Below are positions 1,351-49,202 of a stretch of 64,000 nucleotides of DNA, piece after piece. How positions within the stretch are numbered: the first letter of the stretch is position 1; the number at the start of each line of letters is the position of its first letter. The notes beneath the pieces are model-generated. The model ran no database searches and was not told the DNA's origin. It saw only the letters and a list, made by a program, of their open reading frames with translations. The position numbers and the translations under genes were made by a program. Origin of the DNA: Agromyces soli (GTDB lineage Bacteria > Actinomycetota > Actinomycetes > Actinomycetales > Microbacteriaceae); the NCBI RefSeq assembly GCF_022811605.1, contig NZ_CP094533.1:3100001-3164000 (forward strand), given 5' to 3'.

Positions 1351-1914
1351 ATGAACGGACAGCGCCCGAGCGGCGGTTTCAGCGGCACCGGGTTCCCCGG
1401 CGACGGCCCCGGCCAGATGCTCTGGGAGGCGATGTCGCAGTTGCGCTCCTCCCTCGACCCGCGCGGCGGCGGCTCCCGCATGGCGCGCGGCGACGTGCGC
1501 CAGGCCGTGCTCGTCCTGCTCGCCGAGGAGCCGATGCACGGCTACCAGATCATCCGCGAGATCGAGGAGCGCAGCGGCGGCAGCTGGAAGCCCAGCGCCG
1601 GCTCGGTCTACCCGACCTTGCAGCTGCTCGCCGACGAGGGGCTGATCACGGCCGAGGAGCTCCGCGGCCGCAAGACCTACTCCCTCACGGAGGCCGGCCG
1701 CGCCGAAGCCGATGCGGGCGCCGATCGACCCGCACCCTGGGAGTCGGGCACCCGCGGCGCCGCCCCGCACGCGGCGCTGTCCAAGGCCGGCATCGAGCTC
1801 GCCTCGGCGGCCGCGCAGCTCGGCCGCACCGGCACGCCGGAGCAGCTCGAGCAGGCGGTGCGCGAGCTCGACGACACTCGCCGGCGGCTCTACTCGATCC
1901 TCGCCCAGGACTGA
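1351..1914 (+). CDS. PadR family transcriptional regulator
   Basis: A 187-residue DNA-binding repressor. The winged helix is at about residues 45-115, with the family's RGDVRQAVLVLL helix, the HGYQI turn, and the wing motif around SVYPTLQLLADEGLI. The C-terminal part is a helical dimerisation arm. An in-frame ATG lies 12 bases upstream (1339), but GGAGGT at 1341-1346 sits correctly for the ATG at 1351 and overlaps the earlier codon, so 1351 was chosen. An AT-rich palindrome just upstream is the probable autoregulatory operator. The UbiB-like gene begins 4 bases after the stop, so the two form one unit and the kinase is the likely regulated target. The ligand is unknown. Confidence 0.9.
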   Translation: MNGQRPSGGFSGTGFPGDGPGQMLWEAMSQLRSSLDPRGGGSRMARGDVRQAVLVLLAEEPMHGYQIIREIEERSGGSWKPSAGSVYPTLQLLADEGLITAEELRGRKTYSLTEAGRAEADAGADRPAPWESGTRGAAPHAALSKAGIELASAAAQLGRTGTPEQLEQAVRELDDTRRRLYSILAQD

Positions 1915-1918
1915 CCGG

Positions 1919-3673
1919 GTGACGCCGCGCGACGCCGGCGGCCCCACGCCGCCCGCCGCGGACGACGAGCGCGCCCGGCGCGCCCGCTCGCGCCGCATCC
2001 TGCGCTTCGCCGCCCGGCAGCTCGTGCAGCTCTGGTGGTTCGAACTCGCGCTGCCGAAGCTCGGACTCGCCGGCATCGCCGAGCGCACCCGCGCCGCACG
2101 GATGCAGCGGCTCGCCTCTCGCTTCCGCGGTCTCGCGGTCGAGCTCGGCGGTCTGATGATCAAGGTCGGCCAGTTCCTCTCCTCCCGGCTCGACGTGCTG
2201 CCGCCCGAGATCACCTCCGAGCTGGAGGGCCTGCAGGACGAAGTGCCCGCGGTCGCGTTCCCCGAGATCCGGGCGCTCGCCGAGCAGGAGCTCGGCGCGC
2301 CGCTCGGCTCGGTCTACGCCGCCTTCGACGAAACCCCGGTCGCCGCGGCCTCGCTCGGCCAGGCGCACCGCGCCCGGCTCGCCGCGCCCGACGCCGAGGA
2401 CGCCGGCTTCGCCGAGGTCGTCGTGAAGGTGCAGCGCCCCGGCATCGACCGCATCGTCGCCGTCGACCTCGCGGCGCTCCGCCGCATCGCGGGCTGGCTG
2501 CGCCGAGTGCGGATCGTCGCGGACCGAGTGGATGCCCCGGCGCTCGTCGAGGAGTTCGCGCAGACGAGCCTCGAGGAGATCGACTACCTGCACGAGGCGG
2601 CCAACGCCGAACGCTTCGCCGAATCGTTCGCAGAGGAGCCGCGCGTCGACGCCCCCGCCGTCGTCTGGGCGCGCACCACCCGCCGGGTGCTGACGCTCCA
2701 GGACGTCACCGCGATCAAGATCAACGACACGGCGGCACTGCGCGCGGCCGGCATCGACCCCTCGGAGGTCGCGCACGTCTTCGCCGAGGTCATGTTCGAC
2801 CAGGTGTTCACGCACGGCTTCGTGCACGCCGATCCGCACCCCGGCAACCTCTTCGTCACGCCCAGCGTCGCCATTGATCCGTCGGCCTCTGCGGGCGACG
2901 CGGCGACGCCCGCCTGGCGGCTCACGTTCGTGGACTTCGGCATGATGGCCGAGGTGCCCGCCGAGCTCCGCAGCGGGCTGCGCACCCTCGTGATCGCCGT
3001 CGCCGCACGCGACGGGCGCGGCATGATCGAGGCCGCACGGGAGATCGGCGTGCTCCTGCCGAGCGCGGACACCGGCGAGCTGGAACGCGCGCTCTCGCAG
3101 CTGTTCGAGCGCTTCGGCGGCATGGGCTTCGCCCAGCTGAAGGACGTGGACCCGAAGGAGTTCCGCGAGTTCGGCGAGGAGTTCGGCGATGTCGTGCGCT
3201 CCCTCCCCCTGCAGTTGCCCGAGCATCTGCTGCTCCTCATCCGGGCGATGGCGCTCACCTCCGGCATGTGCAGCGGGCTCGACCCCGAGTTCAACGTCTG
3301 GGACGCGGTCGAGCCGTACGCGACGCAGCTGCTCCGCGAGGAGGGCGGCGGGATGGCCCGCGGCTTGCTCGACCAGGCGATGTCGAGCGCCGGCATTCTC
3401 TGGGGGATGCCGCAGCGGCTCGACTCCGTCGTCACGAAGGTCGAGCAGGGCCGGCTCTCCTTCGACACCTCGCGCCTCGAGCGGCGCCTCGACCGGCTCG
3501 AGGGCGTCGCCCGTCGGGTGGTCTCGGCCGTGCTGTTCGCCGCCCTCCTCATCGGCGGCGCGGTCATCGTCGCGCCGAACCCGGCGCTCGGCTGGACCCT
3601 CGTCGCGCTCTCCGTGCTACCGCTGCTGCACGCCCTCCTCGCCGGGCTGTTCTCCCGGCGCGGCCCGCGGTAG
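1919..3673 (+). CDS. ABC1/UbiB family atypical kinase
   Basis: A 584-residue UbiB/ADCK-type protein. Family hallmarks are KVGQ at 82-85 (the KxGQ helix), the Ala-rich nucleotide loop ASLGQAH, the VVKVQRPG lysine strand, HADPHPGNLF near 302-311 (catalytic loop), and VDFGMM near 336 (metal-binding DFG). Two hydrophobic segments at about 537-580 form a C-terminal membrane anchor, as in many bacterial members. In quinone-making bacteria these ATPases assist isoprenoid-quinone or lipid metabolism; actinobacteria make menaquinone, so the client here is unclear. GTG at 1919 was chosen because it lies just after the padR stop; longer versions would overlap padR. Coupling to a PadR repressor suggests conditional expression. 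Confidence 0.9.
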   Translation: MTPRDAGGPTPPAADDERARRARSRRILRFAARQLVQLWWFELALPKLGLAGIAERTRAARMQRLASRFRGLAVELGGLMIKVGQFLSSRLDVLPPEITSELEGLQDEVPAVAFPEIRALAEQELGAPLGSVYAAFDETPVAAASLGQAHRARLAAPDAEDAGFAEVVVKVQRPGIDRIVAVDLAALRRIAGWLRRVRIVADRVDAPALVEEFAQTSLEEIDYLHEAANAERFAESFAEEPRVDAPAVVWARTTRRVLTLQDVTAIKINDTAALRAAGIDPSEVAHVFAEVMFDQVFTHGFVHADPHPGNLFVTPSVAIDPSASAGDAATPAWRLTFVDFGMMAEVPAELRSGLRTLVIAVAARDGRGMIEAAREIGVLLPSADTGELERALSQLFERFGGMGFAQLKDVDPKEFREFGEEFGDVVRSLPLQLPEHLLLLIRAMALTSGMCSGLDPEFNVWDAVEPYATQLLREEGGGMARGLLDQAMSSAGILWGMPQRLDSVVTKVEQGRLSFDTSRLERRLDRLEGVARRVVSAVLFAALLIGGAVIVAPNPALGWTLVALSVLPLLHALLAGLFSRRGPR

Positions 3674-3681
3674 CGCTCGGC

Positions 3682-3687
3682 TAGGCT
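3682..3687 (+). promoter_or_regulatory. -10 element of a probable leaderless promoter
   Basis: TAGGCT ends 6 bases before the ATG at 3694, the spacing expected if transcription starts at the A of the start codon. No Shine-Dalgarno precedes the gene, which supports a leaderless mRNA and its own promoter after the UbiB-like gene. Confidence 0.45.
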
Positions 3688-3693
3688 GCCTGC

Positions 3694-5034
3694 ATGGGGC
3701 ATCGCGGATTCGCGTCGGCGTCGGCGGCGACCGCGAACGGACTCACCCTCGCGCTTGCCCCGGGCCTCGCGCCGAGCGGTCCCGATCCGCGACCGAGCTT
3801 CTTCCACGGCTTCGCCACCGAGCCGCAGCTCGTCGCCCGCGGACTGCTGACCCTCGCCGACCTCACCGCCACGCGGTACTTCAAGTACACGCCGACGACC
3901 CAGCGCGACCCGGTGCTGACCGCCCACGGCGACCGCCTCCGCGCCGAGGTCTTCTCGGCATGCAACAGCGTCTACGCCCGGCTCGACCTGCTCGCGAGCG
4001 GGCTCGACGGCGGCGAGGTGTCGCACGGCACGACGAACGTCGACCTCGGCCTCGCGACGAGGCAGGCCCTCATCGCGGTCGGGCGCTCCGAACTGTTCCA
4101 CCTCGACGTCGGCGCCGACGGGCTCGCGCTCTCCACCCCGCAGACGACCGCCGTCGAACGCCCGGTCGAGATGCCGGCCCGCTGGATCCCGGCCTTCGGC
4201 AACGTGGCCGAGCTGCACCGCCGCCTGCGCCCCGCGTTCGAGCTGGACCGTGCGGGCGCCCGGGCGCTGCTCGGCTCGCTCCCGGCGACGACGGCCTCGG
4301 GTGCGAGCGGCTGGCTGACCCCGACCCCGAGCGGAGCCAGGCTCGCTCCGCGCCGAACCGGCAGCGCGGTGCACGTGCAGGGCCTGCACCGGCTCGCCGC
4401 GCTGAAACGGCTGCTCCCCCACGTGCAGGGGCTCGCCGTGTACGGAGCGGCGGACGGCGAGCCGGGGCCCACCGCCGTCGAGGTCTCGCTCCCGCACGCG
4501 CGTCTGCTCCTCGGGCTCACCGTCGAATCGTGGCGAGGCTTCTCCGGCGAAGGATCGCTCGTGAGCGCCCTCGCGCCCGACGACGTCGCCGAGCACGCTG
4601 CGCTGCTCTCGGCCCTGCTGGCCTTCGAGCCGGTGATCGACGTGGAGCGGCTGCAGCGGGAGTCCGGCCTCGGCCGCGCCCAGACCGAGTCCGGCATCGC
4701 CGTGCTCGCCGCCTCCGGCCGCGTCGGCTGGGACGTGCGGAGCGGCGCGTACTTCCATCGCGAGCTGCCCGACGATCCCGAGCGCGTCACGCGCGACCAC
4801 CCGCGGGTGCGGACCGCCCGCCGCCTCGCCGCCGAACGGCACGTCTCGCCCGCCGAGGCCCCGGGCGAATGGCACGTCGAGGGCGGGAGCGCCACCGAGC
4901 CGGTGCGGTACCTGGTGCGGATCGGCGACGACGGCGGCCGATGCAGCTGCACCTGGCAACTCGGCGGCAGCCGCGACCGAGGACCCTGCGCGCACGTGCT
5001 CGCCGTGCGCATCCTGATGGAGGAGACCGCATGA
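3694..5034 (+). CDS. SWIM zinc-finger protein
   Basis: A 446-residue protein ending in a SWIM finger: CSC at about residues 417-419 and CAH about 13 residues later (CxC...CxH), within a segment resembling other bacterial SWIM proteins. The first 400 residues have no enzyme motif that I recognise. SWIM fingers bind nucleic acid or protein partners and occur in bacterial gene clusters with large helical-repeat proteins. Here the stop overlaps the start of the 1094-residue downstream gene (ATGA at 5031-5034), so the two are translated together and probably act together. The promoter appears leaderless. The function is unknown. Confidence 0.8.
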   Translation: MGHRGFASASAATANGLTLALAPGLAPSGPDPRPSFFHGFATEPQLVARGLLTLADLTATRYFKYTPTTQRDPVLTAHGDRLRAEVFSACNSVYARLDLLASGLDGGEVSHGTTNVDLGLATRQALIAVGRSELFHLDVGADGLALSTPQTTAVERPVEMPARWIPAFGNVAELHRRLRPAFELDRAGARALLGSLPATTASGASGWLTPTPSGARLAPRRTGSAVHVQGLHRLAALKRLLPHVQGLAVYGAADGEPGPTAVEVSLPHARLLLGLTVESWRGFSGEGSLVSALAPDDVAEHAALLSALLAFEPVIDVERLQRESGLGRAQTESGIAVLAASGRVGWDVRSGAYFHRELPDDPERVTRDHPRVRTARRLAAERHVSPAEAPGEWHVEGGSATEPVRYLVRIGDDGGRCSCTWQLGGSRDRGPCAHVLAVRILMEETA

Positions 5035-8000
5035 CCGACGCCCTCGCCCGCTCGCTCGAACTGTTCCGCGAGCTCGGCTGGGACGGCGCCCCGCTCCCCG
5101 ACGCACCCGCGCTGCCGATCGGCACCGAGGCGCAGCAGCGCGAGGCGCGGGCCGGGCTCCGCCGCGGCGACTGGACCGAGTGGTCCGAGCACGACGGCGG
5201 CTTCGTCCGGGCCTCGCTCGTCGGCGAGACCGACCACGGGATGCTCGCCCTCTTCGCGATCCGCACCGGCGTCGACGCCAGGCGGGCCGAGGACCTGCTC
5301 GGCGGGGCCGGCACGGTGCCCGACGAGCTGGCGGCCGAGGTGCTCGCGACCCGCGGGCCCGAGTTCGCGACGGCGTTCGTCGCCCGCGCCTGCCGCTCGA
5401 ACCGCCGCGCCTGGGAGCACTCCACGTCGGTGCACGCGGGACGCGCGGTGCGGCTCGTGCACCATCACGGTCTCCCGGTGCCCGAGAGCGTGGAGTATCT
5501 GAAGGACTGGTCCGTCTACGCGGCGCTCGCCCTCGGCGAGGAGGCGGAGCTCTTCCCGCAGGACCGCGGCGCGATCGACGCCGAGCTCCTCCGCTCACGC
5601 TTCACCGAGCACATCCGCGTCGGAATCGCCGTCGGGGCCCCGGCGACCGGGCCGTTCGGCCGCGCGGTCGCGGCCGGGGTCGCGGCAGGCTGGATCCGGC
5701 GGGACGAGGCGGTCGCGCTCGTGCTCCTCGCGCTGGACGCGGCCCAGCGCCCGGGAGACCGGAAGGCCTGGGCCGGCACGCTCGTCGGAGCACTCGCTCT
5801 GAGCGACACCGAACTCGTCGCGCACGCCGGCTCCCTGCTGGGCGCGCTGAGCCACGCCGAGGCGCCGGTCGTCGTGGCGCTCGCGCCGGCGCTCATCGAG
5901 CACGGCGACGCGGACGACGCGGCCGAGGCGGTGTCGCTCGCCCTCGCGACGAAGCCCAAGGCCGCTCGACGTGCGGTCCTCGACGCCGCCGAACGGCGCC
6001 CCCGGCCGCTCGCCGGCGCGGCGGGCGAGACCGCGCGACCTGCCCTCGCCGCCGTGGCGGCCGGGCGGGACGCGGGCCTCGCGAAGTCCGCGACGGCCCT
6101 GCTCGCACGCTGGGGCCTCACCGCCGAGGCGGTGGCGGAGCATCCCGTCGACGCGCCGCCCATCGCCTGGAGTGCCACGCCGCCGCTCTGGGAGGTGCCG
6201 AGGTTCGCCCAGGCGCCGGCGACGATCGAGGCGCTGTCCACCGCCGCCGAGCGTCTCGCCTCCCGCCCGGAGAACGCCATGGACCTCGAGGTGGATCGCT
6301 TCCTCGACCTCGCGAACGCCGTCGCCCGCAGCGATCCCGATCGTGCGCGCCTCGCCCTGCGGGGATTGAAGCCGAGCTGGCGGGCCGGCGTCGGAGCCGT
6401 GGCCGACTGGGTCGCCGAGGCGCCGATCCGCTCGCTCGACCGCCTCGTCGGCCCCGGCGGCGAGGACTGGCGCCACGACGTGCACTACCCACCGGCGACC
6501 GCTCGCGAGGCCGCCGTCGCGCAGCGCCTCGGCGAGGTGCCGATGCTGCTGTCGACCCCGAGCTGGGACGACCTTCGGATCGATCCAGAGGAGCTGCTCG
6601 CCCGGCTGCGCGCCCACCGCGACGCCGACGCCGCCGCGAGCGAGGCGGACCTGCTGCTCGCCCTGCTCCGGGTCGAGCTCTCGCTCGTCACGCCGGCGCA
6701 GCTCGACGAGCTCGCCACGCTCGAGGTGCCGGTGCTGCTGCAGTCCGGCGAGCGCATGGCGACGGGCGCGGGCCCCGCCGCTCGCGCCTACCTGCTCGAC
6801 CCGCTCCGCGAGCCGGCCCTCGTGCAGGACGAGGACGGCGACTGGTCCCGCGCCGAGACGGCCCTCCCGGCCTCGCTCAGCGGATTCCCGCCGCGGCTCG
6901 ACCCGAGCCGCTACGGCTGGGGCTCCCCGGTGGAGCTGCCGGGATGGGGCGACGGCACGCACTCGGGCGATTGGCTCGAAGCGGCGAGCGGCTACACCTG
7001 GCGGCAGCTCGCCCGCCGCGCCCGACCGTTCGGACCGCGCCAGGCCGCAGCGCTGATCGGCGGGCTCCGCTCGCCGCACGAGCAGGCCGCCGGCGCCATG
7101 TTCGAGGCCGTGCTCGAAGCCTGGGAGCGCGGCCTCCTCATCCCGGGCGTGGCCGAGCTCCGGCTCGTCGACCGCGGCGGCCCGAGCGGCGCGGCGCAGC
7201 TCGCCCGCGTGGCCGGAGAGCTCGCCGAGGCCGGACTGGGATCGCTCGTCTGGCCGCTTCTCGACCGCACCGTCGAGGCATCCCTCGCCGGCGTCCGGAT
7301 GGTGCCGGGGACGGCGGAGCTCGTCGAAGCGATCGACGCCCTCCTGCCGTCCGCCCTGGCTGCCGTCGGCGCCGGCATCGCCGAGGCATCCGTGCTCGAG
7401 CTGCCGGGCGTCCGCGCGCTCGCCGCGCGGAGCGGCTCCTCGCGCGCCGTCGCCGCCGCCCGCGCGGTCGTCGCCCGCCTCCCCGAGGCGAGCGCGCCGG
7501 CCGCTCCCCCGGCCCCCGAGGCCGAGCCCGGGATCGATCTCGACGACGTCTGGCCGGCAGGCGACGGCGAGGGCGTGGTGATCGACGACGGCGTCGAACC
7601 GACCGCGACGGTGCTCACTCGCGGCTCGAAGCGCTTCGTGCCGCTCGAGTTCGCGCTCGCCGACGCCCCGGAGGTGCGCTACCGCGCCCTGATGGCGTGG
7701 GCCTACGCCCTCGACCGGGAAGGGCAGCTCGACGCCGAGACGGTCGACGGCGACGAGCGCCGCTGGATCGAATGGGACGACGCCGCGGGCCGGCTCTCGG
7801 TCTCCGAGTTCCGTGACCGAAGCACCGGCGGGGCCGGCCCGCGCAGCGACGGCCTCGAACCGCCGCTCACCTCGCTCATGGTCGCGGTCGTGCTCGCCTC
7901 GCTCTGCTCGGACGTCGAGTCGCGCTACAGCGTCGATGCGATGGTGGCAGCGCGAAAGTTCTCCGCGGCCTCGGTGCGGCTCGCCGCGCGACGGCTCCTG

Positions 8001-41168: not shown

Positions 41169-42839
41169 TCAGCCGAGCACGAGCTCGCGGTCGACGAGTC
41201 CCGCCGCGACGGGCGTGTGCGAGATGAGCACGACGGAGCGGCCGGATGCCGCGTCGAGCAGCTCCGCGAGCAGGGCGTCCGCCCGCGCGCGATCGACGCT
41301 CGCGGTCGGTTCGTCGAGCACGAGCACGTCGAAGTCCGCGAGCATCGCCCTGGCCAGCGCGATCCGGTGGGCCTGGCCGCCCGATACGAGCGCGCCTCGC
41401 TCCCCGACGGGCGCGTCGAGTCCGCCGCGCTCGCGCATCCACTCGCCGAGGCCGACGCGTTCGACCACCGCCTCGAGCTCGGCGTCGCTCGCCGTGTCCC
41501 GGGCGAAGATGAGGTTCTGCCGGATCGACTCGTCGAAGAGCCAGGGCCGCTGCTCGACGAGCCCGATGCGGTCGCGCAGCCGATGGGCATCGAGCTCGCG
41601 CGCCTCGATGCCGTCGACGCGGTAGGAGCCGCCGTACTCGAGGAATCGGACGAGTACGTGGGCGAGCGTGGTCTTGCCGCTGCCGCTCGGGCCTCGCACG
41701 AGCACGCGCTCTCCCGGGTCGAGCACGAGATCGACGGGCCGGAGGGCGCTCGGCCGCTCGATCCCGTCCGACCCCGGCCAGTCGGCGTGCACGCCGTGCA
41801 GTTCGAGCCTGGGTGCGGTTCCGTCGGCCGGCAGCGCCCGGGGCGCGACCGCGGGGACGGGCAGCTCCGGCGGCACGTCGGCGGGCACCGCACGGGCGAC
41901 GCGCTCCGCCGCCGAGCGCGCGACGCGCCACGCCGCCGCCGCGGGCGGGATCGCCGCCGCGACCTCGGCGACGGCGAGCGGCACGAGGGCGAGGATCGCG
42001 AGCGTCGGGCCGTCGATGCCGCCGTTCGAGAGGACGGGGGCGGCGAGCCAGAGCGCGACGGCTGCGCCGATGCCACCCATGGCCGCGACGGCCGCGGCGA
42101 CCGCCCCGGCGGCGACCGCCCGCGCCCGCGAGACGCGTCCGAGTCGCCGGGCGAGGCCGTCGATGCGGTCGAGGTCGGCGTCGGTGGCGCCGTACGCGAC
42201 CAGCAGCTCCCTCGTGCGGAGGTGTTCGACGACCGCCTGCTGGAGCCGACCGCGCAGCGGGGCGAGCTCGCGGTCGGCCCGCGCGCCCGCGCGATGCTGG
42301 GCGAACAGCGCGAGGCCGATGCCGGCCACGAGCACGAGCGCGAGCCCGGCCGCCGCGCCGGGCGCGAGGAACGCGATGCCCGTCACCGCGGCGACGAGCA
42401 CGACGAGCGCGCTCACGACGGGCTGCACCACGCGGAGCGCGAGGTTCTGAAGCTCGTCGACGTCGCCCACGAAGCGGGCGAGCAGCTCGCCGCCCCGGGT
42501 CGCCGGCACGCCGTCGGGCGCGACCGGGAGCATCCGCTCGTACACGCCGGCACGGACAGCCGCGAGCTGCCGGAACGCCGCATCGTGCCCCGCGAGTCGT
42601 TCGAGGTAGCGGAACACCGCGCGCGACAGCGCGAACGCCCGCACGCCGACGATGCCGAGCGAGAGAAAGAGGATCGGCGGCTGCTCGGCCGCCCGGGTGA
42701 TCAGCCAGGCGCTCGCGGCGAGCAGCGCGACGGCCGATCCGCCGGAGGCGATGCCCGCGAGCACCGCCGGCAGGAGCCGCCGGAGGGGCGGCATCGCCTC
42801 GCGCAGTACGCGACGTGCGGCGGGGTCAGTTCGCGACAC
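41169..42839 (-). CDS. cydC: ABC exporter subunit CydC
   Basis: A 556-residue half-transporter. Six membrane helices fill the first 300 residues; the ATPase domain has RGPSGSGKTTLAH (Walker A), the signature LVSGGQAHRIALARAM, and Walker B VLVLDEPTAS. With CydD it moves thiols or heme needed to assemble cytochrome bd. GTG at 42839 was chosen because GGGAGG lies 6 bases upstream; it overlaps cydD by 14 bases. An ATG at 42794 is the alternative start. Confidence 0.9.
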   Translation of the reverse strand: MSRTDPAARRVLREAMPPLRRLLPAVLAGIASGGSAVALLAASAWLITRAAEQPPILFLSLGIVGVRAFALSRAVFRYLERLAGHDAAFRQLAAVRAGVYERMLPVAPDGVPATRGGELLARFVGDVDELQNLALRVVQPVVSALVVLVAAVTGIAFLAPGAAAGLALVLVAGIGLALFAQHRAGARADRELAPLRGRLQQAVVEHLRTRELLVAYGATDADLDRIDGLARRLGRVSRARAVAAGAVAAAVAAMGGIGAAVALWLAAPVLSNGGIDGPTLAILALVPLAVAEVAAAIPPAAAAWRVARSAAERVARAVPADVPPELPVPAVAPRALPADGTAPRLELHGVHADWPGSDGIERPSALRPVDLVLDPGERVLVRGPSGSGKTTLAHVLVRFLEYGGSYRVDGIEARELDAHRLRDRIGLVEQRPWLFDESIRQNLIFARDTASDAELEAVVERVGLGEWMRERGGLDAPVGERGALVSGGQAHRIALARAMLADFDVLVLDEPTASVDRARADALLAELLDAASGRSVVLISHTPVAAGLVDRELVLG

Positions 42840-44472
42840 GGACGGCCTCCCGGAGTTCGACGACGCGATCGGCCGCCTCGACGAGGGCGGGGCGGTGGCT
42901 CGCGACGAGCACCGCGGTGCCGTTCTCTGCGAGCCGGCGCACGGCGGTGGCGAGCCGGGCCTCGTGTCCGGCGTCGAGCGCCGAGCTCGGCTCGTCGAGG
43001 ATGAGCAGTCGCACTCCCTCGGCGCGGGCGCGGTGCCAGGCGCGGGCCACCGCGATCCGCTGCTGCTGCCCGCCGGAGAGCCCGGCACCGTCGGCCCCGA
43101 CCGGGTGCCCGGCCTCGAGCCCCACGGCGAGCTCGGCGAGCGCCTCCTCGAGCAGCGCCTCGGGCGCCTGCTCGCTGCCGAGCCGGACGTTCGACGCGAC
43201 GGTGCCCGCGCGCAGCAGCGGCTGCTGGCCGGCCCAGGCCACGCGCGGCCGGGCAGCGGGCCCCGCGGGCGCGCCGTCGACCCAGGCCTCGCCGTCGGCC
43301 TCGGCGAAGCCGAGCAGCGCGGCGATGAGACTCGACTTGCCCGCACCGCTCGGTCCGACGAGGGCGACGACCTCGCCGGGTGACAGTTCGAGGTCGACGG
43401 GAGCGGCGACGGCACGGCCGTCGCGCAGCGCCGCGAACCGTTCGAGCCGGAGCACCGCGCCCGCGTCCGCCCCGGACCGTGCCGAGGCCGGCGTCGTCGC
43501 GGCGCGCACGGCCGAGGCATCCGCCCGCTCCCCCGCCTCGATGCGGTCGAGCGCCTCGCCGGAGGCTTCGAGCCCCTCGGTCGAGGCGTGGAAGGCGGCA
43601 CCCACGTTCCGCAGCGGCAGGAACACCTCCGGCGCGAGCACGAGCACGAAGAGGCCGGCCAGCAGGCCCATCTCCCCCGAGACGAGGCGCAGGCCGATCG
43701 ACACCGCGACGAGCGCGATCGACAGGCTCGCCCCGAACTCGAGGACGAAGCCGGAGAGGAAGGTCACCCGCAGCACGCGCATCGTCTTGCCGCGGTACGC
43801 GTCGGTCGCCCGCCGGATGCGGCCCAGCTGGCGCTCCGCGCGGTTGAAGACCACGAGCGTGGACAGGCCGCCGACGATCTCGAGGAAGGCGGTCGAGAGC
43901 TGCTGCAGCCCCTCCCACTGCCGCTGCTGCACCTGCTTGGTGGCCAGGCCGATGAGCGCCATGAAGATCGGCAGCAGTGGCAGCACGATGACGAGGATGA
44001 GCCCGGAGAGCGGATCGGCGAGCCAGACCGCGACGAGCAGGATCGGCATCGCGATCACCGTGAGCACGAGCTGCGGGAGGTAGCGCCCGAAGTAGTCGTC
44101 GAGCGCGTCGAGCCCGGGTCCGAGCAGGGTCGCGAGCCTGCCCGTGCCGCCGGGCGCTCCGGCGCCGCGATCGACCGACTCGAGCACCGCCCGGCGGAGC
44201 TCGGCCTTCACTCGCACCGCCCCTGCGGCGCCGGACCACTCCCACACCCACGCCGCGAGTGCGCGCACGAGGACGCAGCCGACGAGCAGCAGCATCGCCC
44301 AGCCGAGCTCCGCCAGCGGGACGCCCGCGACGAGATCGGTCACGAGTCTGGCGAGCGCGTACGCGAAGCCGATGACGGCGACGGCCTGGACGAGCGCCAC
44401 CGCGCCGCCCGCGGCGAGGAAGCCGCGGGCGGCGCCGGAGCGCCGGATGAGGCGAGGGTCGAGCGGTTTCAC
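42826..44472 (-). CDS. cydD: ABC exporter subunit CydD
   Basis: A 548-residue half-transporter with six N-terminal membrane helices, Walker A LVGPSGAGKSSL, the signature [18 protein letters not shown], and Walker B LLILDEPSSALD. It pairs with CydC. The start GTG at 44472 follows the cydB stop by one base. The order cydA-cydB-cydD-cydC and the tight spacing show a single operon. Confidence 0.93.
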   Translation of the reverse strand: MKPLDPRLIRRSGAARGFLAAGGAVALVQAVAVIGFAYALARLVTDLVAGVPLAELGWAMLLLVGCVLVRALAAWVWEWSGAAGAVRVKAELRRAVLESVDRGAGAPGGTGRLATLLGPGLDALDDYFGRYLPQLVLTVIAMPILLVAVWLADPLSGLILVIVLPLLPIFMALIGLATKQVQQRQWEGLQQLSTAFLEIVGGLSTLVVFNRAERQLGRIRRATDAYRGKTMRVLRVTFLSGFVLEFGASLSIALVAVSIGLRLVSGEMGLLAGLFVLVLAPEVFLPLRNVGAAFHASTEGLEASGEALDRIEAGERADASAVRAATTPASARSGADAGAVLRLERFAALRDGRAVAAPVDLELSPGEVVALVGPSGAGKSSLIAALLGFAEADGEAWVDGAPAGPAARPRVAWAGQQPLLRAGTVASNVRLGSEQAPEALLEEALAELAVGLEAGHPVGADGAGLSGGQQQRIAVARAWHRARAEGVRLLILDEPSSALDAGHEARLATAVRRLAENGTAVLVASHRPALVEAADRVVELREAVRVAN

Positions 44473-44473
44473 G

Positions 44474-45478
44474 TCAGTGCGCGGCCGCCTCGATGGTCTG
44501 CCTGGTGACGCGCTTGCGGAAGATCCAGTAGGTCCACGCCTGGTACGCGAGCACGAGCGGCAGGAAGATCAGCGCGGTCCAGCTCATGAACGTGAGCGTA
44601 TACGGCGTGCTGGAGGCGTTCGCGATCGTGAGGCTGTTCGCCGGGTCGTTGGATGCGGGCATCACCTCGGGGAAGAGCGCGGCGAAGAGCCCGATCACGG
44701 CGGCCGCGATCGTGAGCGCCATGAGCCCGAAGGCCACGCCCTCCTTCCCGCGCACGTTCGCGAGCACTCCGCCGATGAGGGCGACGGCCGCCACGGCCGC
44801 CGGCGCCCAGAACCACGCGGAGCCCTGCGCGACGCCCGTCCACAGCAGGAACGCTGCGGCGACGACGATCGTGATGACGCCAGCCTTCGTCGCGAGGCGC
44901 TTGGCCCGGGCCCGCAGCTCGCCCTCGGTCTTCAGCGCGATGAACACGGCGCCGTGCGTGAAGAACAGCAGCAGCGTCGTGGCGCCGCCGAGCAGGGCGT
45001 ACGGGTTCAGCAGGTCGAAGAGCGTGCCGATGTAGTTGTGGTCGGCGTCGAGCGGCACACCCTGCACGATGTTCGCGAAGGCGACGCCCCAGAGCAGCGC
45101 CGGCACGGCCGAGCCGACGATGATCATGCGGTCGAACCAGGCCTTCCACTGCGACTCCGGCCGCTGGTGCCGGTATTCGAAGGACACGCCGCGGGCGATG
45201 AGCGCGAGCAGGATGAGCAGCAGCGCGAGGTAGAAGCCGGAGAACAGCGTCGCGTACCACTCGGGGAAGGCCGCGAACAGCGCGGCGCCGGCGACGATCA
45301 CCCACGTCTCGTTGAGATCCCAGACGGGGCCGATCGTGTTGATCATGACCCGGCGGTCGGTGTCGTCCTTCGCGAGGAAGGGCATGGTCATGCCGACGCC
45401 GAAGTCGAAGCCGTCGAGCACGAAGTAGCCGACGAAGAAGAAGGCGACGATCCAGAACCAGAGCACGGCGAGATCCAT
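44474..45478 (-). CDS. cydB: Cytochrome bd oxidase subunit II
   Basis: A 334-residue membrane protein with about eight helices and family motifs such as FFVGYFVLDGFDFGVGM near the start and GPVWDLNETWVIVAGAALFAAFPE. It forms the heterodimer with CydA. It is 12 bases downstream of cydA. Confidence 0.95.
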   Translation of the reverse strand: MDLAVLWFWIVAFFFVGYFVLDGFDFGVGMTMPFLAKDDTDRRVMINTIGPVWDLNETWVIVAGAALFAAFPEWYATLFSGFYLALLLILLALIARGVSFEYRHQRPESQWKAWFDRMIIVGSAVPALLWGVAFANIVQGVPLDADHNYIGTLFDLLNPYALLGGATTLLLFFTHGAVFIALKTEGELRARAKRLATKAGVITIVVAAAFLLWTGVAQGSAWFWAPAAVAAVALIGGVLANVRGKEGVAFGLMALTIAAAVIGLFAALFPEVMPASNDPANSLTIANASSTPYTLTFMSWTALIFLPLVLAYQAWTYWIFRKRVTRQTIEAAAH

Positions 45479-45490
45479 GGCGAACTCCTT

Positions 45491-46903
45491 CTAGTAGACC
45501 GTCGAGGGCTGCTCGACGCGTCCGGTCTCGGGGTCGGGGGCGCCGATCTCGGGCGGCCCCTTCCTGACGGCGCGGATGATGAGGCGCACTTCCACGACGG
45601 CGAGGATGCCGTAGATCAGCGTGAAGGCGGTGAGCGAGATGAGCACGTCGAGGCCCGTGACGTTGGGCGACACTGCCGACTCCGTGAACATCTGGCTGAA
45701 CACGATCCAGGGCTGCCGGCCCATCTCCGTGAACACCCAGCCGACGATCATGGCGCCGAGCGAGAGCGGGAAGCTCCAGATGGCGACCTTCCACACCCAC
45801 TTCTGCTTCGGCATCCGGCCCTTGCGGGTGAGCCAGAGGCCGACGACGGCGACGAGGACGTGGGCCATGCCGAGCCCGATCATCCAGCGGAACGCCCAGT
45901 AGGTGACCCAGATGATCGGCGTGTAGTCGCCAGGGCCCCAGAGCTCGGTGTACTGGGCCTGCAGGTCGTTGATGCCTTCGACGCAGCCGTCGAGACTGTG
46001 CGTGGACAGCAGCGACAGGAGGTACGGGACGCGGATGGAGAAGAGTTCGTTCGTGCCGTCCGGTGTGCCGAGCGTGAAGATCGAGAAGGAGGCGTCCGCC
46101 CCGCACACGGTGTCGTAGGTGGCTTCGGCCGCGGCCATCTTCATGGGCTGCGTCGCGACCATGGCGAGGCTCAGCTGGTCGCCGAAGAAGGTGGTCAGCG
46201 CGCCGGAGACCACCATCGCCCAGAGCCCGAACTTCAGGGCCGGACGCATCGTGTCGAGGTGCTGGTTGCGCGAGAGGTGCCACGCGGCCGCCGTGATGAT
46301 GAGACCGGACGACACCATGAACGCCGCGGCGATGGTGTGCGGGAAGGCCGCGAGGGCGACGGGGTTCGTCAGCACCGCCCAGATGTCCACCAGCTCCGCC
46401 CGGCCGCGCTCGGCGTTCAGCTCGAATCCGACCGGGTTCTGCATCCACGCATTCGCCGCGATGATGAAGTACGCCGACACGATCGAGCCGACCGCGGTCA
46501 CCCAGATGGTGGCGAGGTGCAGCTTCTGCGGCAGGCGGTTCCAGCCGAAGATCCAGAGGCCGATGAACGTCGCCTCCAGGAAGAAGGCGAGCAGTCCCTC
46601 GAGCGCGAGCGGCGCGCCGAAGATGTCGCCGACGAAGCGGGAGTACTCGGACCAGTTCATGCCGAACTGGAACTCCTGCACGATGCCGGTCACGACACCC
46701 ATGGCGAAGTTGATGAGGAAGATCGAGCCGAAGAACCGGGTGATGCGCAGGTACTCGACCTTCGCCGTGCGCACCCAGGCGGTCTGGAAGATCGCCGTCG
46801 TCGTGGCGAGACCGATCGTGAGCGGCACGAACAGGAAGTGGTAGACGGTCGTCAGACCGAACTGCCACCTGGCCAGCAAGAGCGGATCGAGCAGATCATT
46901 CAC
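45491..46903 (-). CDS. cydA: Cytochrome bd oxidase subunit I
   Basis: A 470-residue quinol oxidase subunit carrying heme b558, b595 and d. ARWQFGLTTVYHFLFVPLTIGL at the N-terminus has the conserved His; GMNWSEYSRFVGDIFGAPLALEGLLAFFLEA and AFRWMIGLGM are typical. The Q-loop appears short. It oxidises menaquinol and reduces oxygen with high affinity, supporting low-oxygen or stress respiration. GTG at 46903 was chosen over an upstream in-frame start at 46972 that would overlap the operator. Two BlaI-type dyads lie upstream. Confidence 0.95.
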   Translation of the reverse strand: MNDLLDPLLLARWQFGLTTVYHFLFVPLTIGLATTTAIFQTAWVRTAKVEYLRITRFFGSIFLINFAMGVVTGIVQEFQFGMNWSEYSRFVGDIFGAPLALEGLLAFFLEATFIGLWIFGWNRLPQKLHLATIWVTAVGSIVSAYFIIAANAWMQNPVGFELNAERGRAELVDIWAVLTNPVALAAFPHTIAAAFMVSSGLIITAAAWHLSRNQHLDTMRPALKFGLWAMVVSGALTTFFGDQLSLAMVATQPMKMAAAEATYDTVCGADASFSIFTLGTPDGTNELFSIRVPYLLSLLSTHSLDGCVEGINDLQAQYTELWGPGDYTPIIWVTYWAFRWMIGLGMAHVLVAVVGLWLTRKGRMPKQKWVWKVAIWSFPLSLGAMIVGWVFTEMGRQPWIVFSQMFTESAVSPNVTGLDVLISLTAFTLIYGILAVVEVRLIIRAVRKGPPEIGAPDPETGRVEQPSTVY

Positions 46904-46943: not shown

Positions 46944-46962
46944 CTTCTACACCTCGTAGAAG
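46944..46962. promoter_or_regulatory. BlaI-type operator 1, cydA-proximal
   Basis: CTTCTAC-ACCTC-GTAGAAG is a perfect 7-bp-arm dyad. It lies 41-59 bases upstream of cydA. TAC-N5-GTA cores are typical of BlaI/MecI targets. Confidence 0.8.
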
Positions 46963-46977
46963 CCTGCGGCACCCATT

Positions 46978-46996
46978 CTTCTACTCGATGTAGAAG
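46978..46996. promoter_or_regulatory. BlaI-type operator 2, blaI-proximal
   Basis: CTTCTAC-TCGAT-GTAGAAG has the same arms as operator 1, extended to 9 bp each side. Centres are 34 bp apart, about three helical turns. It overlaps the expected -35 region of blaI. Confidence 0.8.
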
Positions 46997-47013
46997 AAGC
47001 GCAAGTCACGCAG

Positions 47014-47019
47014 TACGAT
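47014..47019 (+). promoter_or_regulatory. -10 element of a leaderless blaI promoter
   Basis: TACGAT is followed by six bases and then the blaI ATG at 47026, so transcription would start at the start codon. No Shine-Dalgarno is present. Confidence 0.5.
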
Positions 47020-47025
47020 GAAGCA

Positions 47026-47403
47026 ATGGCAGGTCTTGGCGAGCTCGAACGAGCGGTGATGGAAGAGCTCTGGACGAGCGACGCCGCACTCACGGCCAAC
47101 GAGGTGCGCGACCGGCTCGTGCTCACCGATTCCGACCGCGGCCGCTCCCCCGCGACGACCACGGTGCTCACCGTGCTGTCCCGGCTCGAGCGCAAGGGAT
47201 TCGTCTCCCGCTCGCGCGACCAGCGACCGCACCGCTACCGCGCCCTGCTCAGCCGGGCCGAGCACACCGCGGAGCTCATGCACGAGGTGCTGGACTCCTC
47301 GCACGACCGCGACGGCGCCCTCGCGCGCTTCGTCGGCACCGTCACCGCCGGCGAGGCGCAGACCCTCCGCCGCCTCCTCGACGAGCTCAGCGCCCGGCGC
47401 TGA
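47026..47403 (+). CDS. BlaI/MecI/CopY family repressor
   Basis: A 125-residue winged-helix repressor: GELERAVMEELWTSDAALTANEVRDRL, then TTTVLTVLSRLERKGFVSRSRDQRPHRY, typical of the family. These dimers are inactivated by proteolysis triggered by a membrane metalloprotease, encoded here 2 bases downstream. It is divergent from cydABDC with two matching operators between, so the cytochrome bd operon and itself are the likely targets. Confidence 0.93.
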   Translation: MAGLGELERAVMEELWTSDAALTANEVRDRLVLTDSDRGRSPATTTVLTVLSRLERKGFVSRSRDQRPHRYRALLSRAEHTAELMHEVLDSSHDRDGALARFVGTVTAGEAQTLRRLLDELSARR

Positions 47404-47405
47404 CC

Positions 47406-48332
47406 ATGCTCGTCGTCGCGGCTGTGCTCGCCGCCCTCGCGATCACCCTCGCGTGGCCGGCCCCGCTCGCGCTCGCGAGCGCCGCCTGGCCGGCCAGAGC
47501 GCCCGCCCTCGCCCTCGCCCTCTGGCAGGCGATCGCCCTCTCGGGCGGCCTCGCCATGATCGGCAGCCTGCTCGCCTTCGGCGCCTCGGCCTCGGGATCC
47601 CTCCTCGCCGGACTCCGGGACCTCCTCCCCCATCTCGTCGACGGGCCGATCCCCGAGCACTACGGCGTGTTCGAGATCGCCGCCCTCACGCTCGCCGCCG
47701 GACTCGCGGTGCACCTCGCCCTGAACCTCGCGCTCACCGCGGTCTCGGCGGAGCGCGAGCGACGTCGCCAGCACCAGCTCATCGATCTGCTGAGCGAGCC
47801 GCTGCCCGGCCAGCCGGGCACCCGGGTGCTCGCCCACCCGGTACCGCTCGCGTACTGCGTGCCAGGCCTGCGCACGGCGACGGTGCTCACCGACGGCCTC
47901 ATCGGTGCGCTCGAGGACGACGAGCTCGCGGCGGTCGTCGCGCACGAGCGCACTCACCTCGAGCAACTGCACCACGTCGTGCTGCTCTCCTTCCGCGCGT
48001 GGCACAGCGCACTGCCCTGGTTCCCGATCGCGAATCGCGCAGAGCGGGCCGTGTCCACGCTGACGGAGATGCTCGCCGACGACGGCGCCCGACGCACCAC
48101 GGGGGCCGAACCGCTGCGGCGGGCGGCCGAACGCCTCGGCGCCGACGCCGAGCCCTTCGCCTACGCGGACGCCGGTGGTGTCCGGCCCGACCCCGACCTG
48201 CTCGAAGCGCGGCTCCGTCGCCTCGATGACCCGATCCAGCCGCTGCCGCTCGTCGAGCGCGTCGGCATCGTTGCGACCGCGTTCATCCTCGTCGCGACGC
48301 CCATCGTCTCGATGCTCGCGATCCTCGGCTGA
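47406..48332 (+). CDS. M56-family membrane metallopeptidase
   Basis: A 308-residue integral membrane protein with N-terminal helices and the zinc motif HERTH at 180-184 (HExxH), then a C-terminal membrane segment. M56 (BlaR/MecR-like) proteases cleave or trigger cleavage of BlaI repressors. There is no C-terminal penicillin-binding sensor domain, so any signal is not beta-lactam sensing by the classic route. It lies directly after blaI. Confidence 0.9.
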   Translation: MLVVAAVLAALAITLAWPAPLALASAAWPARAPALALALWQAIALSGGLAMIGSLLAFGASASGSLLAGLRDLLPHLVDGPIPEHYGVFEIAALTLAAGLAVHLALNLALTAVSAERERRRQHQLIDLLSEPLPGQPGTRVLAHPVPLAYCVPGLRTATVLTDGLIGALEDDELAAVVAHERTHLEQLHHVVLLSFRAWHSALPWFPIANRAERAVSTLTEMLADDGARRTTGAEPLRRAAERLGADAEPFAYADAGGVRPDPDLLEARLRRLDDPIQPLPLVERVGIVATAFILVATPIVSMLAILG

Positions 48333-48440: not shown

Positions 48441-49202
48441 ATGAACGAGCTGCTCGATTGGATCCTCGACACCGTCCAGAGCGTGGACCCGGTGCTGCGC
48501 ACCGTGCTGGCGGGGATCGGCATCATGCTCGAGACCTCCGTGCTCATCGGCCTCATCGTGCCCGGGGACACGGTCGTCATCGTCGCCTCGACGGCGATCG
48601 AGAACGGCACGCAGTACGTGGCGATGCTCGTGACCGTCATCTTCGGCGCGCTCCTCGGCGAGACGGTCGGCTTCGTGCTCGGCCGCTGGTTCGGCCCGCG
48701 CATCCAGCACTCGCGGCTCGGCCGGCGCATCGGCGAGGCGAACTGGCAGCGCGCTCAGCGCTACCTCGACCGGCGCGGCGGGCCCGCGGTGTTCATCTCG
48801 CGCTTCCTGCCGGTGCTGCACTCGCTCGTTCCGCTCACCGTCGGCATGAGCACGATGAGCTATCGCCGCTTCCTCGCCTGGACCGCGCCCGCCTGCGCGA
48901 TCTGGGCCGCGGCGTACACGACCGTCGGCTGGGTCGCGGCGGGCAGCTACCGAGAGCTCAGCCGCGAACTGCACTGGGCGGGCTACGTCTTCGTCGCCGT
49001 CATCGCGGTGTTCCTCGTCGTCGTCTGGATCGCGAAGAAGCTGATCCTGCGCTCCGAGGCCCGCCACCTCGAGGCCGACGCGGCGCTGGGCGACGCGGTC
49101 GCGGGCGACGCGACGCCGGTCGACGAGCTCGCGAACGAGACCGCCGTGAGCGAGGGCGAGGCGAGCCCGTGCACGACGGAGGGGCCGGAGTCCCGGGCGT
49201 GA
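48441..49202 (+). CDS. DedA family membrane protein
   Basis: A 253-residue protein of the DedA/VTT superfamily (lipid scramblase-related flippases). Family features are LIGLIVPGDTVVIVAS, the E...G...G...R region (GALLGETVGFVLGRWFG), and RFLPVLHSLVPLTVGMSTMSYRRF. Some members flip undecaprenyl phosphate or phosphatidylethanolamine. The C-terminus is acidic and soluble. TAGGCT lies 8 bases before the ATG and may be the -10. A terminator overlaps the 3' end. Confidence 0.9.
   Translation: MNELLDWILDTVQSVDPVLRTVLAGIGIMLETSVLIGLIVPGDTVVIVASTAIENGTQYVAMLVTVIFGALLGETVGFVLGRWFGPRIQHSRLGRRIGEANWQRAQRYLDRRGGPAVFISRFLPVLHSLVPLTVGMSTMSYRRFLAWTAPACAIWAAAYTTVGWVAAGSYRELSRELHWAGYVFVAVIAVFLVVVWIAKKLILRSEARHLEADAALGDAVAGDATPVDELANETAVSEGEASPCTTEGPESRA

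Follow-up and report, generated by a model that had tools for sequence, protein, structure and literature searches.

In Staphylococcus aureus, the divergent blaZ and blaR1-blaI operons are separated by two dyads, Z and R1. The locus analysed here, in a window of 64,000 nucleotides (the whole stretch of DNA), shared with that system the divergent target and regulator operons, the two dyads between them, a BlaI-type repressor and an HExxH...E protease whose nearest fold was BlaR1. It differed in that the target was cydABDC and not a beta-lactamase, and in that the protease was without the penicillin-binding sensor that BlaR1 carries. The loop matching EL1 was also shorter in the 70 proteases aligned here (17-30 residues, mostly 28-29) than in BlaR1, where EL1 comprises residues 56-96 in the accessible part of PMC9834060.

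The BlaI of Mycobacterium tuberculosis (Rv1846c), taken to be the closest solved relative of the BlaI in the window, would resemble it further in repressing an energy operon: according to the accessible parts of PMC12565901 and PMC5874750, the mycobacterial BlaI binds the promoter of Rv1303, a gene co-transcribed with atpBEFHAGDC, and lowers its expression. The targets named in the accessible parts of the mycobacterial literature were atp, blaC, sigC and ftsQ and not cyd, and no cyd-blaI divergon was described there. NsrR, an iron-sulfur regulator of Rrf2 type and thus of a family other than BlaI, controls hmp, and was comparable through the link of NO with hmp; an NsrR-like gene adjoined an operator-bearing hmp in one locus (L186). 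In Streptomyces coelicolor, NsrR is an NO-sensing regulator (PMC4432287). Literature searches, which fell short of most subscription journals, found no link of BlaI to cyd and no report of the sensor-less protease or of a distribution of the locus over several actinobacterial families. The parts of the locus are of known kinds, and BlaI acting on an energy operon has its nearest known precedent in mycobacteria; since these searches met neither with cyd as a target nor with such a protease or distribution, the locus is regarded as a new variation on the BlaI/BlaR1 divergon.

All four cyd genes of the window were identified by profile searches, in the operon order cydABDC on the minus strand: cydA (cytochrome bd subunit I; 45491..46903; PF01654, 525 bits; assigned a GTG start at 46903), cydB (cytochrome bd subunit II; 44474..45478; TIGR00203, 336 bits; PF02322), and the ABC exporter subunits cydD (42826..44472; TIGR02857, 512 bits) and cydC (41169..42809; TIGR02868, 501 bits; start approximate). 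On the plus strand lay blaI (47026..47403), encoding a BlaI/MecI-type repressor of 125 aa, and the gene of a BlaR1-like (M56) membrane zinc protease of 308 aa (47406..48332). Gene calls and profile matches bore out the divergence of cydABDC and blaI-protease claimed in the earlier note. Next after the protease gene, and likewise on the plus strand, a DedA/VTT membrane protein was encoded (48441-49202).

Two perfect dyads of the form CTTCTAC-N5-GTAGAAG, neither assigned to a strand, separated the operons: a cyd-proximal putative BlaI operator at 46944..46962 (CTTCTACACCTCGTAGAAG) and a blaI-proximal one at 46978..46996 (CTTCTACTCGATGTAGAAG). Their arms were identical and their centres 34 bp apart, as noted earlier. 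With up to 3 mismatches, the pattern matched 5 times in the window (0.42 expected), and 5 or more matches occurred in 0 of 100 shuffles, an excess far above chance. A scan of the whole 3.81 Mb genome for the exact pattern, suggested in the earlier note as a check, returned the two cyd-blaI dyads as the sole copies. Arms of the form TAC...GTA are the general shape of BlaI/MecI operators; dyads of this type adjoined blaI and were conserved with it, and BlaI is predicted to bind them. A predicted -10 box, TACGAT, was placed at 47014..47019 on the plus strand, at an offset conserved in the genus (TAnnnT occupied -12 to -7 relative to the blaI start in 57/59 genus genomes, and in 28/58 in other genera). 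This position puts the blaI -35 region inside the blaI-proximal dyad, in agreement with the overlap of the second dyad with the blaI promoter region claimed earlier, and suggests that the blaI transcript may be leaderless, with its -35 region under the putative operator.

The window BlaI matched PF03965 over residues 4-120 of 125 (81.3 bits; cut-off 22.6), and its closest solved relative was 2g9w (E 1.7e-16), which we take to be M. tuberculosis BlaI, Rv1846c. The copper repressor CopY carries a C-terminal CxC metal-binding motif. The window BlaI was free of cysteine and therefore without CxC, and its score against TIGR02698 was far below the cut-off (27.7 against 121.95 bits). Cysteine was absent from 214/219 BlaI sequences and single in the other 5, which makes CopY-like metal or thiol sensing unlikely. 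Phe102 was kept in 217/219 BlaI sequences (2 gaps), and the P1 residue was Arg in 199/219, compared with Asn in S. aureus. The accessible part of PMC9834060 places the cut in S. aureus BlaI between N101 and F102, with Phe as P1'.

Within the genus, cydA was present in 59/60 genomes, and each of the same 59 held exactly one BlaI match (E <= 1e-4), beside cydA; here and below, the counts come from related genomes, which are not independent, and some genomes were represented by two loci. The 60th genome had neither cydA nor blaI. The two genes were divergent in 59/59 loci, the distance between their starts being 77-170 bp, and blaI was accompanied by a protease match in 59/59. In 59/59 genomes a site matching 10 or more of the 12 arm bases stood 46-48 bp upstream of the blaI start; the cyd-blaI region held at least one exact site in 51/59 and two or more sites in 36/59. 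Neighbouring sites (n = 36 pairs) were 21-23 bp apart in 31 pairs and 34 bp apart in 3, and the 34-bp spacing of the window was unusual.

Among 150 genomes of the family, cydA was found in 114 and a BlaI match in 88. A divergent blaI adjoined cydA in 60 of the 114 (3 of the genus, 57 others) and was absent from that position in 54. Outside the genus, 57 of 58 family BlaI loci were divergent from cydA, the remaining blaI (L156) being distant from its cydA, and a protease match stood beside blaI in 57/58; none of 34 weaker family BlaI matches adjoined a cydA match by coordinates. Sites that matched 10 or more of the 12 arm bases occurred in 56/57 cyd-blaI regions of the other family genera (exact in 52/57), and two or more sites in 50/57. 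The sole miss, L152, had three copies with a 6-base spacer (TTCTAC-N6-GTAGAA) in the last 120 bases before blaI, a change that hints at an altered spacing rule in that genome. Neighbouring sites (n = 71 pairs) were 21-25 bp apart in 49 pairs and 42-44 bp apart in 13, spacings of about two or four helical turns. Many family genomes matched the window CydA only over its first ~215 residues in a frame of at least 530 aa; these partial matches point to a second CydA type, and several such genomes also had a divergent blaI.

No exact site was found upstream of cydA in 20 regions taken from the 54 family genomes without adjacent blaI (0/20), and weaker sites were found in 4/20, of which two matched 11 of the 12 arm bases and the other two matched 10. 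The conservation together of pairing, divergence and sites gave strong comparative support to the earlier proposal that BlaI controls cyd through the dyads. From the observed sites, gene order and co-inheritance we infer binding and repression, and BlaI very probably represses cyd.

Two exact sites 20-26 bp apart were sought in 84,980 species genomes, and at least 119 stretches were returned. Among the 119 stretches listed, cydA stood at the twin sites in 108, and blaI and cydA were divergent within 700 bp in 98; Arthrobacter, Pseudarthrobacter, Cryobacterium, Leifsonia, Geodermatophilus, Blastococcus and Nesterenkonia were among the genera. In L269 (Arthrobacter, 2718-6550) blaI and cydA were 3.8 kb apart, with a site at blaI and twin sites at cydA. 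In 9 further listed stretches cydA was without a blaI match in the locus. Three of these ended at the locus edge; the six away from the edge (L202, L219, L224, L254, L260 and L282) indicate that the pairing of cyd with blaI is not strict. With twin operators at cydA and no local blaI, as in L219, L224, L260 (Nesterenkonia) and L282, a repressor may act in trans.

The other 11 listed stretches were without cydA. A BlaI-like gene was recognised by reading the sequence in L198, L240, L279, L286 and L287, four of which also had a large M56-like gene in view; the BlaI genes of L209 and L249 were recognised otherwise. In L249 (Aurantimicrobium, 4975-7995) a BlaI-M56 pair with twin operators faced genes for a copper chaperone of the PCu(A)C type and for a DyP peroxidase, and not cyd. 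In L266 (Virgisporangium, 1750-3354) twin operators stood immediately upstream of qcrB (cytochrome bc1 subunit), with no BlaI match in that 8-kb locus. L214, L298 and L302 gave no BlaI or cyd match and may be chance matches.

The same loci bear on two other readings of the sites. In other actinobacteria cyd is under the control of Rex and Crp, and a regulator other than BlaI, for example one of these types, might bind the dyads, blaI-protease being a mere neighbour; loci that have twin sites at cydA but no blaI, as in Nesterenkonia, would agree with this. Such a regulator is nevertheless extremely improbable, because twin sites also preceded BlaI-like genes without cydA (L198, L209, L240, L249, L279, L286, L287), because exact sites were absent from the 20 cydA regions without adjacent blaI, and because the arms resemble BlaI/MecI operators. 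Alternatively, BlaI itself could be the sensor, through a ligand or its own turnover, and the protease could act elsewhere or on surplus BlaI only. Some BlaI-family repressors, such as CopY, do respond to metal directly, and L219, L224, L260 and L282 had twin-site cydA promoters with neither blaI nor protease in the locus, but the near-absence of cysteine from BlaI and the company of the protease in 59/59 genus and 57/58 family loci make this reading unlikely. Repression by dyad-bound BlaI, relieved through the protease, is preferred to both.

The protease was described in the earlier note as an M56 protein with HExxH and without a penicillin-binding sensor. Alignment, lengths and predicted helices confirmed both the motif and the lack of the sensor, and the M56 label held in part: BlaR1 came first by fold and M56 matched many of the relatives, but the window protein itself, with its HERTH motif, matched Pfam M48 (PF01435, 38 bits) and not M56. 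In 70 aligned proteases (the window protein and 69 of 98 proteases, chosen within 250-380 aa), M48 was matched in 70/70 and M56 also in 43/70 (E <= 0.01). H180, E181, H184, E221 and D225, the full gluzincin ligand set, were invariant in 70/70; the matching BlaR1 residues are His201, His205, Glu242 and Asp246 (PMC9834060, accessible part).

The structure model of the protease had a mean pLDDT of 94. Its first three Foldseek rows were BlaR1 (8exq, 8exp and 8exs; E 6e-3 to 1.5e-2, prob 1.00, TM 0.34-0.40), with no match at E 0.001 or better. Fold comparison gave Z 11.2 with BlaR1 8ext (213 residues aligned over residues 7-264, rmsd 5.1), and Z 10.7 and 10.1 with the M48 proteases 6ait and 4aw6, in which 138-163 residues were aligned from ~103 on and the first helices were unmatched. 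A profile of the protease sequence, searched against solved structures, found M48 proteins and no BlaR1. As modelled, the protease looks nearest in fold to S. aureus BlaR1, with M48 close behind. From the protein families and the predicted fold we infer cleavage of BlaI, a step supported by homology in the gluzincin ligands, the predicted BlaR1-like fold and Phe102; it is likely that the protease removes BlaI.

The C-terminal sensor domain was absent from the 308-aa window protein, whose last predicted helix spanned residues 282-307. The 70 aligned proteases ended 0-13 residues beyond the end of the window protein, and the 200 blaI-linked proteases were 166-362 aa long. These lengths leave no room for a penicillin-binding domain, and no beta-lactamase was noticed among the operator-bearing genes examined, of which family searches covered part of the ORFs. 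Both results argue against cell-wall or beta-lactam stress as the signal that relieves repression of cyd by dyad-bound BlaI, with cytochrome bd being made because such antibiotics disturb respiration. The homology to BlaI and BlaR1 favours such a signal, as does the tie of M. tuberculosis BlaI to blaC besides atp (PMC8265638 and PMC12565901, accessible parts); overall it is very unlikely.

The only conserved cysteine of the protease, C151, in the strand before HExxH, was kept in 69/70. The exception was L249, the BlaI-protease pair that faces other genes; four large M56 proteins at non-cyd loci had Gly at this position by eye, and L156, where the pair is not beside its cydA, kept an equivalent cysteine. 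Cys151 could bind zinc at rest and release it on nitrosylation or oxidation. It is a speculative proposal, and a doubtful one, that the sensor-less protease is an NO or redox sensor working by this cysteine switch, and that with BlaI it runs an actinobacterial respiratory-stress regulon of cyd, hmp, narK and, locally, atp and pta.

Among the matches listed, exact sites outside the cyd-blaI regions were few in the genus; seven such loci were taken up, five of them at hmp, one at narK and one without a clear target. In the other family genera, 28/57 cyd-BlaI genomes were taken in, and the sites reported are those listed, none of them from genome G007. The NO dioxygenase gene hmp was present as 13 genes in 12/60 genus genomes, with an exact upstream site in 8/13, namely the 8 at 61-100% identity to the query. 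In the other genera (40/57 family genomes with cyd-linked BlaI and 40/54 cydA genomes without adjacent blaI), an exact site preceded 5/7 hmp genes with cyd-linked BlaI and 0/9 without. Pooled, exact sites were found at 13/20 hmp genes with cyd-linked BlaI and at 0/9 without it (Fisher p 0.0012; relatives not independent). Of the 7/20 hmp genes without an exact site in cyd-BlaI genomes, two had 11 of 12 arm bases. In L323, hmp lay 100 bp downstream of an exact site.

Exact sites also preceded narK (L188, L335), the ATP synthase gene atpB (L332, L337) and the phosphate acetyltransferase gene pta (L331, L336, L013); atpB in L337 and pta in L336 and L013 were identified from sequence, not by HMM. 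The atpB and pta sites, and the narK site of L335, came from one related genus (g2). The g2 operators at atpB and pta echo the control of atp by BlaI in mycobacteria. As candidate targets, cyd, hmp and narK together point to oxygen lack or NO, and atpB and pta to a shortage of energy. The earlier note had proposed that an envelope or respiratory signal releases cyd expression through proteolysis. Its respiratory part is better founded because relatives also carry the putative operator upstream of hmp, narK, atpB and pta; for its envelope part, the only support noted was that the protease lies in the membrane.

In the genome of the window, no hmp was matched at E <= 1e-30 and no exact site was found beyond the cyd-blaI pair, so the switch looks dedicated to cyd there. 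With at most 1 mismatch, 9 sites were found in this genome, compared with 3 for a reversed control pattern. A one-mismatch site (L342) preceded a gene read as hemA, and a site with 11 of 12 arm bases was present at this position in 25 of the first 30 genus genomes. Genome G250, without blaI and cyd, keeps the hemA site, which is therefore probably promoter sequence, and hemA was rejected as a target. The one-mismatch sites L341, L343, L344, L346 and L347, within predicted ORFs, and L345, 241 bp before an ORF, were not taken as targets either. Genuine matches whose function was not evident were set aside (L185, L324, L325, L326, L329, L330, L333, L334, L338); their neighbours were a TetR-like gene, inorganic pyrophosphatase, DUF1254 proteins, an amidase-like ORF, a membrane protein and an ArsR-like regulator, and one was without a close start. 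In L330 (838-1983) and L333 (788-2002) the operator stood ~30 bp before a membrane protein, that of L330 having no Pfam or NCBIfam match and that of L333 being similar by reading.

In the proposed switch, BlaI dimers on both dyads would repress cydABDC and, by autoregulation, the blaI-protease operon. Hindrance of the main respiratory chain, by low oxygen, by NO or another block of the oxidase, or by falling membrane energisation, would activate the BlaR1-like, sensor-less membrane protease, which would cut or otherwise inactivate BlaI. Cytochrome bd, an oxidase tolerant of low oxygen and NO, would then be made along with the exporter CydDC. Taken as a whole, a BlaI/BlaR1-type divergon rewired to respiration is the probable explanation of the locus; that its signal is a respiratory block, NO included, has slightly less than an even chance.

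A switch of the antibiotic-resistance type thus appears to govern respiration, which would extend the BlaI/BlaR1 system into bioenergetics and agrees with the action of mycobacterial BlaI as a repressor of the ATP synthase operon, a role otherwise hard to place. In Mycobacterium abscessus, cydAB, cydDC and the ATP synthase genes are all raised by one redox-cycling drug (PMC8765290, accessible part). In these culturable soil genera the switch is compact and conserved, with one repressor, one protease and one 17-bp site, and the switching of cytochrome bd bears on the survival of actinobacteria when oxygen is low, when NO is present, or when drugs block the main respiratory branch or the ATP synthase.
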